A stretch of 64,000 bases of DNA from Leptolyngbya sp. 'hensonii'. Lineage in GTDB: Bacteria > Cyanobacteriota > Cyanobacteriia > GCF-001939115. Position numbers and translations under genes: made by a program. Location of the stretch: positions 10,869 through 74,868 of the forward strand of contig NZ_MQTZ01000017.1 of the NCBI RefSeq assembly GCF_001939115.1, in the 5' to 3' direction. This document shows, piece after piece, positions 36,868-47,212 of this stretch. Numbering within the stretch: the stretch's first letter is position 1; every line of letters begins with the position of its first letter. The notes under the pieces are model-generated. The model had not been told where the DNA came from. It did no database searches and worked only from the letters and a program-made list of their open reading frames with translations.

Positions 36868-39804
36868 TCACTTGGTTTCCATCCAATTTTGGCCCGATCT
36901 AATTTCAGCCACCAGGGGAATCGAAAGACTGACGGCCTCTTCCATGGTCTGCTGAATGCGCGGGGCCAGGGTCTCCCACTCCGTCGGGACCATCTCAAAC
37001 ACCAGTTCATCATGGACCTGCAACAACAGGTGGGCCTCATGCTCCGCCAGAATATTCTGCAAACGAACCATGGCAATTTTAATAATATCGGCACTGGAGC
37101 CCTGAATCGGTGCATTTGCGGCAGCTCTCAGGAGACCGGCATCATACTGATCGCGGGTCTTGACCTGATCCAGGTTAATGTCCGCCGGATCTCGCCCCCG
37201 CAAGCGGCGGATCGCCTCACTCGTGAAGTTGAAATAACGCCGACGCCCCAGAATGGTTTCCACATAGCCCTGGGCGATCGCCTGCCGCTGCATTTGTTGC
37301 AGATAGGCAAAGACCCTGGGATAGCGCTGGTTGAAGCGTTCGATAAACACTTTGGCATCTGCTGGGGCCACACCGGATTCCCGAGCAAAACGCTGGGCTC
37401 CCATCCCATAGATGACGCCAAAGTTGATGATCTTACCCAGACGCCGTTCCTCACTGGAAATCTCCTCCTTCTCCAGCAACAAACGGGCCGTCAGGGTATG
37501 CACATCCTGGTTCTGCTGGTAAGTTTCGAGCAGCACCGGTTCCTGGGACAGATGGGCCAGAATCCGCAGCTCGATCTGGGAGTAGTCAGCCGCCGCCAGA
37601 ATCCAACTGGGTTCCGGGATAAACGCTTTGCGAATCTGACGGCTGAAGGCCGTGCGAATGGGGATATTCTGCAGGTTGGGATTGGAGGACGAGAGCCGTC
37701 CTGTGGCTGTAACCGCCTGGTTGAAATCCGTGTGGACCCGTTGCGTATCTGGACGGACCAACAGGGGCAGGGCATCCACATAGGTAGACTTCAGCTTAGC
37801 CAAAGTGCGATATTCCAGTACCGCATCCACAACCGGATGATCCCCCTGCAACTTCTCCAGGGTGGCAGCATCCGTGGAGTAGCCGGTCTTGGTCTTGCGA
37901 GATTTGCGTCGATCGAGGCCCAGCTTCTCAAACAACAGTTCTCCTAACTGTTTTGGGGACGCCAGGTTGAAGGTTTCCCCAGCAGACTCATAGGCCCGTT
38001 GCTCGATCGCCTGGAGATCCTGCTCCAAGTTTTGGGAAAACTCCCGCAGGTATGCCTGATCAATGCGAATGCCGCAGTACTCCATCTCGGCCAGAACTGA
38101 CTCCAGGGGTTGCTCCACCTCCAGCAACAGACGATGGATCGACGGTACGGCATCCAAATCGGCCCGCAACTTCGGCACCAGATGGAAGGTACAGTAGACA
38201 TCCATACCGCAATAGTTGGCCACTGCCGGAATGGTCAGATCGGCGATCGTCTTCCCTTTCGGCACCAGATCTTCGTAGCTCGTGCCACTAAACCCCAGAT
38301 AACGCAGACTCAGGTCACTCAGATTATGGCTTCCCTCCGGATTCAGCACATAACTGGCCAGCATCGTGTCAAAACAGACCCCAGCTATGTGAATTCCCTG
38401 GCAGCGCAACACCAGACGATCGAACTTGGCATTTTGCAACACTTTGGGATAATCGGCGCTCTCCAGAATGGGGCGCAGGCTGTCCAGAACCAGAGCCTGA
38501 TCCAACATGGAACCCTGACGATGCCCCAGGGGAATGTAGGCCAGGTCAGAAAGCGCCGGTCCCCAACAACAGCCGATGCCCACCAGATCGGCATCACGAG
38601 GTTCCAGGGCCGTGGTTTCCGTGTCCCAGGCCACAGGCTGAGCCCGATCGGTATGGGTGCGGAGCCGGTTGATCAGGTCCGTCAGCTTGGCCGGAGTATC
38701 AATGATCTGGGGTGCGATCGCCACCACGGGAACCACCTCGGCGGCATCCGTTTCCTCAGCACTGAAAAACCACAGATCCTCGCTTTCGGGGATAACAGCG
38801 GCCTGATTGGGCTGGATCACAGCAGCTTCGGTTGGGCCTGCAGCGACATCTTCCGCCGGACCTTCGATCGTCCCCCCCAGCAGGTGCTGCCAACGACCCA
38901 CCTGTTTCAGGAAGGAGCGCAGTTCCAGTTTTTCTAACCAGGGCGTGATGGCGGCCTGATCAAACCCCTGCAATCGGTAATTCTCTAGCTCCATTTCCAG
39001 AGGCACATTCAGAAAAATCTGAGCCATGTACTGGGAATGGCGCGCCGCATCCTTTCCAGCCTCCAATTTTTGCTTCACCGCCCCTTTGATCTGATCCAGG
39101 GAAGCATAGATCTGCTCCAGAGAGCCATAGGTCTGCAACAACTGCACGGCAGTCTTGGCCCCAATACCCTTTACACCAGGGATATTGTCAGAGGCATCTC
39201 CACACAACGCCTTGTAGTCCACCACCTGAGCCGGAAGCACCCCCAGTTTGGCCTGCACCCGATCGGCATCATATTCTATGGGGCCGGTCGTAGTTCTTTG
39301 ACCATAGACTGCCCCACTCAGATGCAAGACGGTGATACCCAGATTCAAAGCAATCAATTGAAACAAGTCCTGATCGCCACTCAGAATCCTGACCTGGCAT
39401 CCCTGAGTTCCCGCCCGTCGGGCCAGCGTGCCAATGATGTCATCGGCTTCGTACCCGGCCACGGTAACCACGGCCAGATTCAGACTCTGTAAAACGGCCT
39501 GGAGGTTTTCCAGATCGGGTAAAAAATCCTCTGGAGTTTCTGGTCGCCCCTCCTTGTAGGTTTCATCCACTTCATGGCGGAAGGTGGGTTCCCCCCGATC
39601 GAAGGCGATCGCCAGATGGGTGGGTTTTTCTGCCTCGACCATCTCAAACAGTGCTTTGAGAAATCCAAAGCTGACACTGGTTGGAATTCCCGTTTTGGTG
39701 CGCAGGCCCCCATCCCGACCCTTGGCATAGGCATAGTAGGAGCGAAACGCCAGGGAATGCCCATCCACCAGCAGGAATTTGGGTTGCCCATCAAGAGCCA
39801 TCAA
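36868..39804 (-). CDS. polA: DNA polymerase I
   Basis: 978 aa (ATG 39804 or the adjacent ATG 39801). The 5'-3' exonuclease domain is at ~8-295 (FLLVDGHSLAFRSYYA, VVDYKALCGDASDNIPGVKGIG). The 3'-5' proofreading domain is at ~380-560, with its DxE intact in AWDTETTAL. The polymerase domain is at ~600-978: RVHTDFNQAVTATGRLSSSNPNLQNIP, motif A AADYSQIELRILAH, O-helix RRLGKIINFGVIYGM, motif C LLQVHDELVFE. Needed for Okazaki-fragment processing and repair. Its start overlaps the end of the upstream unknown gene by 14 bp. Confidence 0.97.
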   Translation of the reverse strand: MMALDGQPKFLLVDGHSLAFRSYYAYAKGRDGGLRTKTGIPTSVSFGFLKALFEMVEAEKPTHLAIAFDRGEPTFRHEVDETYKEGRPETPEDFLPDLENLQAVLQSLNLAVVTVAGYEADDIIGTLARRAGTQGCQVRILSGDQDLFQLIALNLGITVLHLSGAVYGQRTTTGPIEYDADRVQAKLGVLPAQVVDYKALCGDASDNIPGVKGIGAKTAVQLLQTYGSLEQIYASLDQIKGAVKQKLEAGKDAARHSQYMAQIFLNVPLEMELENYRLQGFDQAAITPWLEKLELRSFLKQVGRWQHLLGGTIEGPAEDVAAGPTEAAVIQPNQAAVIPESEDLWFFSAEETDAAEVVPVVAIAPQIIDTPAKLTDLINRLRTHTDRAQPVAWDTETTALEPRDADLVGIGCCWGPALSDLAYIPLGHRQGSMLDQALVLDSLRPILESADYPKVLQNAKFDRLVLRCQGIHIAGVCFDTMLASYVLNPEGSHNLSDLSLRYLGFSGTSYEDLVPKGKTIADLTIPAVANYCGMDVYCTFHLVPKLRADLDAVPSIHRLLLEVEQPLESVLAEMEYCGIRIDQAYLREFSQNLEQDLQAIEQRAYESAGETFNLASPKQLGELLFEKLGLDRRKSRKTKTGYSTDAATLEKLQGDHPVVDAVLEYRTLAKLKSTYVDALPLLVRPDTQRVHTDFNQAVTATGRLSSSNPNLQNIPIRTAFSRQIRKAFIPEPSWILAAADYSQIELRILAHLSQEPVLLETYQQNQDVHTLTARLLLEKEEISSEERRLGKIINFGVIYGMGAQRFARESGVAPADAKVFIERFNQRYPRVFAYLQQMQRQAIAQGYVETILGRRRYFNFTSEAIRRLRGRDPADINLDQVKTRDQYDAGLLRAAANAPIQGSSADIIKIAMVRLQNILAEHEAHLLLQVHDELVFEMVPTEWETLAPRIQQTMEEAVSLSIPLVAEIRSGQNWMETK

Positions 39805-40216
39805 AAATCTCCAGTACCTGTCTACAGAAAGACTTTAGCTCATGAGCGGCTTCCTCTGCCGGACAGGTTTTTCCCTCAAAATCCCATTGGCCAATCGTCG
39901 AGAGTTGCCATTGCTTGCCGGTATGGTCAAACCCGGCTAGTTCAACCCCAATCGCTCGGCACTCCTCAGGATGCACCGGATCATCAGCCAGACGAATCTG
40001 CACCAAAATACTCCGGCTCTGAAACCGCCGCGATCGGCCAGGGAAATGAAAGCCGATGTCGATCGAATCAGGATCGACCAGATCCCGTGTATCAGGATCA
40101 TTCATCCAGGGCTTTAAATCAGAACGAACATCTTGAAATTTGGCCTTAAATAGCCCCACAACGCTAGCAATCTTACTGGCAGCTCGAAGGTTTGTCGCCT
40201 GTTCAGCAGCATTCAC
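39791..40216 (-). CDS. Conserved hypothetical protein upstream of polA
   Basis: 141 aa from GTG 40216. I chose this start because AGGAG sits 8 nt before it and because the upstream frame (to 40279) looks non-coding. Visible parts: an N-terminal helix (ATNLRAASKIASVVGLFKAKF), a central segment SIDIGFHFPGRSRRFQSRSILVQIRL and an acidic C-terminal helix (AAHELKSFCRQVLEIF). No family recognised. Overlaps polA by 14 bp, so translational coupling is likely. Confidence 0.72.
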   Translation of the reverse strand: MNAAEQATNLRAASKIASVVGLFKAKFQDVRSDLKPWMNDPDTRDLVDPDSIDIGFHFPGRSRRFQSRSILVQIRLADDPVHPEECRAIGVELAGFDHTGKQWQLSTIGQWDFEGKTCPAEEAAHELKSFCRQVLEIFDGS

Positions 40217-40360
40217 TCGCAGGACTCCTATCGGATGAAATTTTATGATAGCGATCGGTTCCAGGCCGACGCAAGCCAACCAGGAAAGGTCACTCTAAGG
40301 CCACTTCCAATTAACCTTATTTCAGCAGGGCTGGAAGTAGTCAGCAATACGACTCACACC

Positions 40361-40777
40361 CTAACGGCAATCTGCGTTTAAAGGCTCCACATCAAATTGC
40401 CTTTCCTCACTCCAGGCCGTCCACTGGCCATTGACTTTAGCCCTGACCTTCCAACGCCATCCGAGGCGATTGCGATCGATGATGTAACTGCCGGACTGTT
40501 TATCGATATACTCCGGAAGACGAATATTGGCATTATTGATCACTGGACTGGTCGCATTGGATCCTTTCACATACAAGTGATAGGCGGTGGCATTCGGCAC
40601 TGGCGACCAGATAAAAGTCCAGTAAATTCCACTCCGCAGGTTTTGGCAACCATTGTCTAACACATCTCCGATGTCTGGAAACAGCAGCCTGGGGGGAGGG
40701 GTAAAACTGCTGGGCTGGGCCAAGACCATGGGACTGAACAACAATACCGCCCAAAATCCGTAACAGAACTTGCTCAT
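40361..40777 (-). CDS. Small secreted fibronectin III-like protein
   Basis: 138 aa from ATG 40777 (MSKFCYGFWAVLLFSPMVLAQ, a clear signal peptide). The mature part looks like a single fibronectin type III-like beta-sandwich: WTFIWSPVPNATAYHLYVKG, WRWKVRAKVNGQWTAWSEERQFDV. Two Cys (in NGCQNL and NADCR) may form a disulphide. It lies 59 bp downstream of the secreted CHAT protein on the same strand, so a shared secreted function is plausible but unproven. Confidence 0.75.
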   Translation of the reverse strand: MSKFCYGFWAVLLFSPMVLAQPSSFTPPPRLLFPDIGDVLDNGCQNLRSGIYWTFIWSPVPNATAYHLYVKGSNATSPVINNANIRLPEYIDKQSGSYIIDRNRLGWRWKVRAKVNGQWTAWSEERQFDVEPLNADCR

Positions 40778-40836
40778 ATCGATTTTTCTCCTCACAGTAT
40801 TGGGACCTGGCCAGATGAATCAGGCCAGCGGATCGA

Positions 40837-43281
40837 TCAGTTTGCTTCACCAATCAGGATGAACCCAGCCCAGGCTTTCGGATCGGGATAGTCTTTCATC
40901 GTGGCCAGCATCGCCTGCCGTAACGCCTGCGCCTTATCCGGTTGGGTCTGCAAGTTCCGGTAGAAGCGGGTCATCAACTCCGCTGTGGGGCCATCTGGAA
41001 CTTTCCAGAGGGAGACCACCACCGTGGGCACCCCAGCAGCCAGCAGCGATCGGGACAATCCAATCACCCCTTCGCCGGTAATGATCCCCCCACCGGTATC
41101 ACAGGCACTCAGCACCACCAGTTCAGCCTGCAGCTTCAGATCAAAGATTTCATCCGCAGTGAGCAAGCCGCTGTCCTGTCCCTGGGAAGCCAGGGCTATC
41201 ACACCAGGAATGCCAGAGGCTGTCGTCTCATAGAGCAAGCCATGGGTGGCCAGGTGAATGATGCGAGCCTGAGACAGGCGCTGGAGCACAGCCTTTTTAG
41301 TCGCCTGTGCCCCTAACAGCGGGGGGGTTTGCAACAGTTTGCCGATCGCGATCGCCTCTTTTTCGGCCCCTGGTAGCTGGGTCAACTGTTGGGCTGCCGT
41401 ATTGGGCGTCAGGACCACTTTCGGCATGGTGGGATTGCCCACGATCAGCACATCCCCCTGGAAGGACTGGGCCTGATTGCGGCGCAATTGTTCCGTCAGG
41501 GTCAGCACCTGAATGGAGGGGGCTATGATCAGGGTATGGCGCTGAATCAAATAGGTCCCGGCGGGATCCTGTAACGCGGCAAAGGGCACCAGGAACAGAT
41601 CCCCCTGGGGAATCACAATCACCCGGTCCTGGGGATTGGACGGCAGCAGATCCGCGATCGGCGCAATCAACCATCGATGCAACTGTTGCAAATCCGGCTG
41701 CTGGATCTGGGGGAACGGTTCGTTCCCGATCGCGGGACTCTCCTGAAACTGCGCTCCCCGGTTCCTGACGCCGATCGCGATCTGACCCTGGGCCACCAGA
41801 CGCGCCAGGGAGGTCCTCTGCTGCGCCAAGGGTTTCAGGTCCATCCGACGGACCGTAATCTTCCCCGTGGGTTGCACCACATAAATCACCAGGTCCGTTG
41901 GCGGAGCAGGCTGCAAATTCGCCTCCAGATCAGGCTGCAGGATGGAGTATTGCACCAGAGTAGCCTGACGGGTTTTGGCCACCTGCTGCATGCGGCTCAC
42001 ATCCAGGGGGGGATCCAGGGGAGTGCCTGACAGGAGTTGTCCATAGTAAGAGAGCGCCAGGGAGAGGTCTACCAGCCCCTGATCCGGGTCCGGGACAAAT
42101 TCTCGAACCACCTGCGTTCCCTGCGCCATCTTACAGACCCCATTCAGACAAATTTTATGGATGGTAGGCTGCCGTCGCTCCCGCCAGGTTCCTTTCAAAG
42201 GCTGGCATATCCCATTACGACAGGTTTGCCCCCCGACTCCCCGGCTGCCTGTTGGGGCAGCAGCAGTCTGCCGAGCCGGTTGCTGTTGCATCACCGCTAA
42301 CCACTTGCGCCGATTCAGTAAGTTAGCCAGGGCACGGGCCCGCTTCTGCTCCGACACTTCCAGGGCCTGCTCTGGGTTGCCAGATGTCACTAGGAGCAGT
42401 TCCAGAATGTCGCTGCTTCCCCCGGACCCGATCGCCGTTGTCAAGGAGTCAATCCTACTGGAGGCAAAGCCCCCAAAAGGTAAGGAGGGCATGGCATTGG
42501 CAAAGTTCAACCATTGCTGCAGCACGGTCTGGGCTTCTGCCAGCCGCCCTGCCTTGTAGAGGGCATAGCCCAACTGGGGAGATGCCGCTGGTGGCTGGAC
42601 TGGCTTCAAGCCAGGGAATGATCCGGTGGGCACAGTAAACTGCTGCCAGCGCTGATTAGCTTGCACTTCTTTCTGGAAATACTCGATCGCCTGGGGATAC
42701 TTTTGCTGCCGCAAGGCAATTATGCCCAATCCGCTCCAAACCACAGTCTCACGCCAGGGAGCCAAGGCATCCGTCAGCCCCTGATTAGCCGTCAGACTTT
42801 GTTGATAGGACTGGATAGCCTGGGCGGAGTCCCCTGCTGCACCATAGGCATCTCCCAAAACCTTCAAAGCATAGGCTTCTTCACTGCGGTTACCTCCCGG
42901 CTGACGGGCGCGGGCCAGACGCTGCTGGGCTCCCTCGATCGCTCTGGCCGTCTCCTGGCGCAACAACAGCAGCATCTGCAACTGGGTAAATGCCTCCACT
43001 TCACCGGGACGGTCTTTCAATTCCTGGTACAGAGCCAGGGCGCGCTCCAGCTTCTGGGGTGAGGGCAAGGATTTCCGATCTGCCCGGTAGGGGTTCATGT
43101 ACCATTGCCAGAGTTCCGCCACCCCTGCCTGCAACAGGCGATCGGCCTCGGCTTTCCGATCGGTCATCGACTGCGCCTGGGCGGGAAACGAAAGTCCCAG
43201 ATCAGGGATGGAAGCACTATGCAGCAAGAAGCTACAGCCCAACACCGCCATCAGATAGGACGAGAGACAACGCAGACGCAT
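40837..43281 (-). CDS. Secreted TPR-CHAT (caspase-like) protein
   Basis: 814 aa. Signal peptide ending in AQA (about residue 37). TPR-like helices occupy ~40-330 (ALKVLGDAYGAAGDSAQAIQSYQQSL, GLGIIALRQQKYPQAIEYFQKEV). A linker at ~340-395 carries twin CxNGxC motifs (CRNGIC 354-359, CLNGVC 378-383). The CHAT domain lies at ~530-814 with the catalytic dyad: His680 in HLATHG and Cys727 in LSACDTGGG. CHAT proteases are clan CD cysteine peptidases; cyanobacteria hold many TPR-CHAT forms, including HetF. The predicted location is outside the cytoplasm. Confidence 0.9.
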   Translation of the reverse strand: MRLRCLSSYLMAVLGCSFLLHSASIPDLGLSFPAQAQSMTDRKAEADRLLQAGVAELWQWYMNPYRADRKSLPSPQKLERALALYQELKDRPGEVEAFTQLQMLLLLRQETARAIEGAQQRLARARQPGGNRSEEAYALKVLGDAYGAAGDSAQAIQSYQQSLTANQGLTDALAPWRETVVWSGLGIIALRQQKYPQAIEYFQKEVQANQRWQQFTVPTGSFPGLKPVQPPAASPQLGYALYKAGRLAEAQTVLQQWLNFANAMPSLPFGGFASSRIDSLTTAIGSGGSSDILELLLVTSGNPEQALEVSEQKRARALANLLNRRKWLAVMQQQPARQTAAAPTGSRGVGGQTCRNGICQPLKGTWRERRQPTIHKICLNGVCKMAQGTQVVREFVPDPDQGLVDLSLALSYYGQLLSGTPLDPPLDVSRMQQVAKTRQATLVQYSILQPDLEANLQPAPPTDLVIYVVQPTGKITVRRMDLKPLAQQRTSLARLVAQGQIAIGVRNRGAQFQESPAIGNEPFPQIQQPDLQQLHRWLIAPIADLLPSNPQDRVIVIPQGDLFLVPFAALQDPAGTYLIQRHTLIIAPSIQVLTLTEQLRRNQAQSFQGDVLIVGNPTMPKVVLTPNTAAQQLTQLPGAEKEAIAIGKLLQTPPLLGAQATKKAVLQRLSQARIIHLATHGLLYETTASGIPGVIALASQGQDSGLLTADEIFDLKLQAELVVLSACDTGGGIITGEGVIGLSRSLLAAGVPTVVVSLWKVPDGPTAELMTRFYRNLQTQPDKAQALRQAMLATMKDYPDPKAWAGFILIGEAN

Positions 43282-46181: not shown

Positions 46182-46667
46182 CTAGCTCAAGCCAGAGCAG
46201 ATGTAGTCGAGGTAAACACCCATTTCCTTACCAGCATCAGCGCCTACCAAGCTGGCAGTCACTTCTTTGATGGCTTGGATAGCCTGGACAGTAGCACCAA
46301 CGGGTACACCCAGGGAGTTGTAGGTCTCTTTCAGACCGTTCAGAACCCGCTCATCCAGGATGGAGGGGTCGCCAGCCAGCATGGCATAGGTGGCATAACG
46401 GAGGTAGTAGTCCAAGTCGCGGATGCAAGCAGCATAGCGACGGGTGGTGTACATGTTGCCACCGGGACGGGTGATGTCAGAGTACAGCAGGGACTTAGCC
46501 ACAGCTTCTTTAACGATCGCAGCCGCGTTAGCGCTGATCGCGGTAGCTGCACGAACCCGCAGTTCACCAGTGGAGAAATAAGCTTTCAGCTTATCTAAAG
46601 CGGAGGAGTCTAAATACTTACCTTGAACGTCAGATGAATTGATAACAGCAGTGATTGCGTCTTGCAT
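46182..46667 (-). CDS. apcB: Allophycocyanin beta subunit
   Basis: 161 aa. Phycocyanobilin attachment Cys81 in [21 protein letters not shown]; Asn71 in TRPGGNMY is the usual methylated Asn. Length and sequence pattern are exactly those of ApcB. Forms the phycobilisome core with ApcA. 59 bp downstream of apcA. Confidence 0.98.
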
Positions 46668-46726
46668 GTTTTTACTTCCTTAAAGTTATGTAGTCTGGAT
46701 TGTTGACCTTGAGGCAGGTTAACACC

Positions 46727-47212
46727 CTACTGCATTGCACCAATGACGTAGTCGAAGTAGGAGCCAGCTTCAGCAGCATCTTCACCAGACAGCAGGGAAG
46801 AAGCCACGCTCTTCATAGCCCGAACGCCTTCAACGATAGCGTCGATGGGGGTACCCAGGGATTTGTACATTTCACGAACACCCACGATACCGATTTCTTC
46901 GATCGGGGTCACGTCGCCAGCCACAACACCGTAGGTCACGAGACGCAGGTAGTAGTCCAGGTCACGCAGACAGGTTGCAGTCATTTCTTCACCGTAAGCG
47001 TTGCCACCGGGGGAAACCACATCAGGGCGCTTCTGGAACAGTTGGTCACCAGCTTGCTTCACGATGCGCTCACGAGACTCGGTCAGAACCTGAGCAATCC
47101 GAAGACGGCGCTCACCGGTAGAAACGAAGCCTTTGATCCGGTCCAGTTCGCCTGGGCTCAGATAACGAGCTTCAGCATCAGCATTCACGATTGATTTCGT
47201 GACGATACTCAT
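46727..47212 (-). CDS. apcA: Allophycocyanin alpha subunit
   Basis: 161 aa. Chromophore Cys81 in [21 protein letters not shown]. Starts [21 protein letters not shown], as in other cyanobacteria. Shine-Dalgarno GGAGGA lies at 47221-47226 (minus strand). The apcE core-membrane linker, often directly upstream, is not here; the upstream gene is a YbjN-type protein. Confidence 0.98.

Follow-up and report, generated by a model that had tools for sequence, protein, structure and literature searches.

A predicted secreted TPR-CHAT protein encoded in the window (the whole 64,000-nucleotide stretch of Leptolyngbya sp. 'hensonii' DNA that was analysed) carries two CxNGxC motifs in an insertion between its TPR and CHAT parts, and this twin motif is a singleton within our sample of same-class genomes, none of which shares the order, family or genus of this organism. 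We lean towards the view that the insertion is a lineage-specific elaboration of the linker, probably built as two disulphide-pinned beta-hairpins. Judged by its sequence, the gene itself belongs to a family of secreted TPR-CHAT caspase-like proteins that is large and expanded in this genome. The small FN3-like gene that follows it most likely encodes an independent beta-sandwich module, secreted and with a conserved cysteine pair of its own, that owes its position to local gene order.

The open reading frame, the Pfam matches and the motifs agree with the original prediction of a TPR-CHAT protein with a signal peptide and an intact His-Cys dyad, secretion being called by sequence rules. The CHAT domain (PF12770) covers residues 529-812 (E=5.9e-75; 252.8 bits vs a curated cut-off of 24), the TPR_12, TPR_1 and TPR_2 families match above cut-off on its N-terminal side, within residues 105-208, and both residues of the dyad sit in canonical motifs, H680 in HLATHG and C727 in LSACDTG. 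Protease activity is putative. The N-terminus reads MRLR, then a hydrophobic stretch, then PAQA/QS (the slash marks the cut), which is the pattern of a type I signal peptide, and the protein is therefore predicted to be secreted. Cleavage at this site would remove C5 and C16 and leave a mature protein with exactly five cysteines, of which four belong to the twin motif and the fifth is catalytic. The features of the two genes are collected in the table.

Features of the TPR-CHAT gene and its FN3-like neighbour (positions in the window; residues of the encoded protein)
Feature	Position	Strand	Details and basis
TPR-CHAT gene	40837..43281	(-)	814 aa; ORF and translation, Pfam CHAT and TPR, alignment with homologues
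Signal-peptide-like segment, residues 1-36, inferred cleavage PAQA/QS	43174..43281	(-)	sequence reading and crude hydropathy rule
TPR region of CHAT protein	residues about 75-335
Linker insertion, residues 340-424	42010..42264	(-)	MAFFT alignment with 27 homologues; helix-to-CHAT distance
CRNGIC, residues 354-359	42205..42222	(-)	translation
CLNGVC, residues 378-383	42133..42150	(-)	translation
Catalytic His680 codon (putative), in HLATHG	41242..41244	(-)	motif and Pfam CHAT
Catalytic Cys727 codon (putative), in LSACDTG	41101..41103	(-)	motif and Pfam CHAT
Predicted secreted FN3-like gene	40361..40777	(-)	138 aa from ATG; ORF, homologue alignments, model and Foldseek; neighbour by adjacency

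The setting is cyanobacterial, with phycobilisome proteins encoded at 46182-47212, and CHAT proteins are abundant in this genome. There are 33 matches to PF12770, and 21 of the 26 CHAT ORFs longer than 400 aa that we collected, the window protein among the 21, pass a crude hydropathy rule for signal peptides. Therefore, secreted TPR-CHAT appears to be the normal form in this genome, and the window protein ordinary for its family. Several of the matches are clustered on single contigs (C12, C44, C63), and most have signal-peptide-like starts. The C-terminal 390 residues share up to 61% identity with paralogues and with proteins of other cyanobacteria, and matches to the protein occur in 51 genomes of a 59-genome sample, its own included. 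In a tree built from 47 CHAT parts, the branch of the window protein was unresolved and had no supported sister (the bootstrap had not settled). A plasmid search returned 213 records with matches, the best at 42-50% identity. No CHAT relative was seen in the viral contigs searched, a search of a defence-system library gave nothing beyond a weak TPR match, and among solved sequences the A3 profile hit just one (8rot/8rw5, 'CHAT domain-containing protein').

What sets the protein apart is its linker. The positions of CRNGIC and CLNGVC between the TPR and CHAT parts, as given in the original prediction, were confirmed in the translation. In the MAFFT alignment, residues from about 340 to 424 form an insertion of some 85 residues that is missing from all 27 homologues, in which a conserved helix (ALEIAERGRARAFAELL) is joined to the start of CHAT (ATLVEYS) by a short linker. 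Helix and CHAT are 133 residues apart here, whereas 52 homologues have a median of 48 and reach 81 at most. The insertion holds every cysteine of the mature protein except the catalytic one, four in all, and its third-position GC is 0.58, as against 0.67-0.72 in the rest of the gene.

That such a pair is unfamiliar from other CHAT proteins was borne out, and the same searches count against its being a conserved motif. C.NG.C occurs in none of 78 CHAT homologues (nine loci of the gene itself had been dropped beforehand), and CX4C in none of the 52 linkers that could be read, the other 26 homologues having no readable linker. The pool scanned for C.NG.C and linker cysteines included the ORFs of five of the matching plasmid loci. 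Counting back 100 residues from the start of CHAT, 49 of these 52 homologues have no cysteine at all, one has one and two have two. CxNGxC beside CHAT domains was thus absent from the homologues sampled, and the motif does not have the conservation that would define a CHAT subfamily. As a term, CxNGxC or C-x-N-G-x-C was not found in the literature searched.

Wider searches gave the same picture. Our class sample consists of 388 evenly drawn genomes, all related to this one at the level of class. The insertion on its own found no significant relative in them; the best match had E=0.0016, and we take these weak matches to be noise, the top ones lying in frames with stops. Outside the gene itself, the full protein against 59 genomes and residues 29-424 against the 388 gave CHAT-part or TPR matches. 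At the DNA level, the twin pattern (39-69 bases between the two motifs) is present in 5 of the 388 class genomes, including this one, and in the other four it never falls in a CHAT homologue; some of those occurrences are short tandem repeats (G007, G058). The twin motif is not a common chance pattern, since the DNA pattern occurs a single time in this 5.9 Mb genome. We also considered two possible sources of the insertion. A dispersed repeat was rejected, as the genome has only the one DNA copy. An internal duplication of 24 residues is not supported: the units agree at 33 of 72 bases, but their similarity beyond the cysteines is not significant, as 111 of 500 shuffles did as well when Cys-Cys pairs were left out of the scoring.

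The role that we consider most likely for the twin motif is structural, as pinned hairpins in a lengthened linker. C-x-N-G-x-C is what we would expect a two-residue beta-hairpin to look like, with an Asn-Gly turn and a disulphide across the strands; N-G is the classic pair for two-residue hairpin turns, and secreted proteins usually avoid free cysteines. AlphaFold2, run on residues 340-424 as a single sequence, gave a low-confidence model (mean pLDDT 53, with block means of 66, 51, 59 and 63 around the motifs) that has strands at 352-355/358-361 and 374-379/382-387, with one modelled turn per hairpin, at N356-G357 and at N380-G381. Disulphides in the envelope are plausible because the genome encodes a VKOR fused to a thioredoxin-like part (E=7.7e-34 for the VKOR match; a 309-aa ORF that carries CPYC and a thioredoxin-like CPHC). 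The earlier suggestion that the motif could form disulphides is a sensible one. We propose that each C-x-N-G-x-C would fold as a two-residue beta-hairpin that turns at Asn-Gly and has its cysteines facing each other across the strands, and that the VKOR-thioredoxin oxidase could make a local disulphide within each hairpin, the periplasm (or lumen) being oxidising. Two hairpins pinned in this manner would turn a linker that would otherwise be flexible into a compact, protease-resistant one, and would fix the spacing of the TPR module, for recognition, from the CHAT module, for cleavage. It weighs against this proposal that the model is a low-confidence, single-sequence one, that secretion is called by sequence rules, and that the cysteines show no mark of selection, the insertion being without an orthologue in the sample.

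The main competitor, which we regard as a good deal less probable though a serious contender, is that the insertion has no particular function: the linker would have been expanded by a mostly disordered stretch under weak constraint, and the cysteines in it would be incidental. It would account for the low confidence of the model and for an insertion seen in one genome only among the 388 class genomes and 78 CHAT homologues, and the lower GC3 could equally be that of a stretch acquired recently and under little constraint. The site, moreover, seems to be insertion-tolerant, because the CHAT protein of locus L065 (genome G303) has a linker of 81 residues there that contains two cysteines, is of low complexity in one stretch and is unrelated in sequence to the insertion in the window protein. 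However, two C-x-N-G-x-C motifs inside 30 residues would be improbable by chance, and both the turn propensity of N-G and the usual avoidance of free cysteines in secreted proteins speak for hairpins.

Two other roles for the cysteines seem to us improbable. The original prediction had also raised metal binding, and the two CX4C pairs, 18 residues apart, would supply four potential ligands for a metal such as zinc, in the manner of a four-Cys knuckle pair. However, Pfam has no match in the insertion, to a zinc ribbon or to any other family, the predicted secretion would favour disulphides, and the motif is not conserved. Equally slim, in our judgement, are the chances of a redox switch, in which reduction of the hairpins would loosen the linker and so release or block the CHAT protease. 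Developed further, and with as little confidence, the twin hairpins might be a latch, recent in this lineage, that couples a TPR sensor to the protease and through which the periplasmic thiol state switches the enzyme. The cysteines do sit exactly between the TPR and protease modules, and the genome does encode a VKOR oxidase, but local hairpin disulphides are usually structural and the homologues lack the motif.

The next gene does encode, as had been predicted, an FN3-like protein that is probably secreted, secretion being read from its signal-peptide-like start. The likelier start is ATG 40777, which AGGAG precedes; the alternative is GTG 40795, which would give 144 aa. No Pfam family, FN3 included, matches the protein by sequence. 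Its AlphaFold2 model (pLDDT 79.8) has eight strands, and the Foldseek best match is the Fn3-like protein 3mpc (E=3.2e-5, TM 0.58/0.70), so that the modelled fold is a beta sandwich matching solved FN3 domains. The family profile of the small protein weakly matched two solved sequences (E=0.01 and 0.21), a result that we put down to chance. Two cysteines, one in DNGC and one in a C-terminal DC, are conserved: both recur in the G368 relative and in three tandem copies in a secreted protein of a Saprospiraceae MAG (L117:5890-7923), and a fragment in G008 has the second only, the first part of the protein lying beyond the contig end. Transfer of the domain between phyla is possible, to judge from these sequences. 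Between the FN3-like gene and polA lies a 162-aa ORF (window 39791-40279) without a Pfam or NCBIfam match.

Whether this protein is a substrate or partner of the CHAT protein, as the original prediction ventured, can be judged from the loci of its relatives, and we now think it very doubtful. What favours it lies in the window: the FN3-like gene shares the strand of the CHAT gene and begins, from its ATG, 59 nt past the CHAT stop, both proteins have signal-peptide-like starts, and co-transcription is possible because a scan of the gap found no terminator-like site. Elsewhere the two genes were not seen together. FN3-like relatives occur in just 5 of the 388 class genomes at E<=0.01, the present one included, and no plasmid in our search had the small protein. 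The single full-length relative (G368, 58% identity) has SRAP and alcohol dehydrogenase genes on either side, and nothing within 16 kb matches the CHAT protein; two weaker loci (G262, G305) and the Saprospiraceae locus gave no CHAT-protein match in the locus DNA examined. A CHAT gene thus stands beside an FN3-like gene in 0 of the 4 other loci that could be read, the G008 locus, cut by its contig end, being left outside the count. In the 59-genome sample, moreover, the CHAT protein has matches in 51 genomes and the small protein in 2, with this genome in both counts. Therefore, within the sample searched, the two genes do not form a conserved unit, and nothing beyond adjacency speaks for a partnership.

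We suggest that two points follow. In a very expanded family of predicted secreted caspase-like proteins, the linker that joins the recognition module to the protease appears to admit large lineage-specific insertions, and a striking motif in a single protein need not signal a new family. If the cysteines did gate the protease, they would offer a testable activation switch for secreted CHAT proteins; on current evidence, the twin-motif linker is a local curiosity.

HetF is described as a CHAT protein of the Anabaena divisome (PMC8406250), and conflict systems are described as using CHAT as an effector domain (PMC10907252). Csx29 of type III-E CRISPR systems (Craspase) is reported to have a similar TPR plus CHAT layout. 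The window protein differs in its predicted secretion, which argues against its being a type III-E Craspase component. The small neighbour has its closest parallel in the Saprospiraceae protein, whose three tandem copies are each 45-49% identical to it and share both cysteines, whereas the domain stands alone and single here. The nearest known counterparts of the CHAT protein itself are the secreted TPR-CHAT proteins of cyanobacteria, including those on Nostoc and Tolypothrix plasmids annotated as 'CHAT domain-containing tetratricopeptide repeat protein', which have the same domain order and His-Cys dyad and share with it the last TPR-side helix and the start of CHAT. They differ in lacking the insertion of about 85 residues with two CxNGxC motifs, which among the proteins compared is seen in the window protein only.
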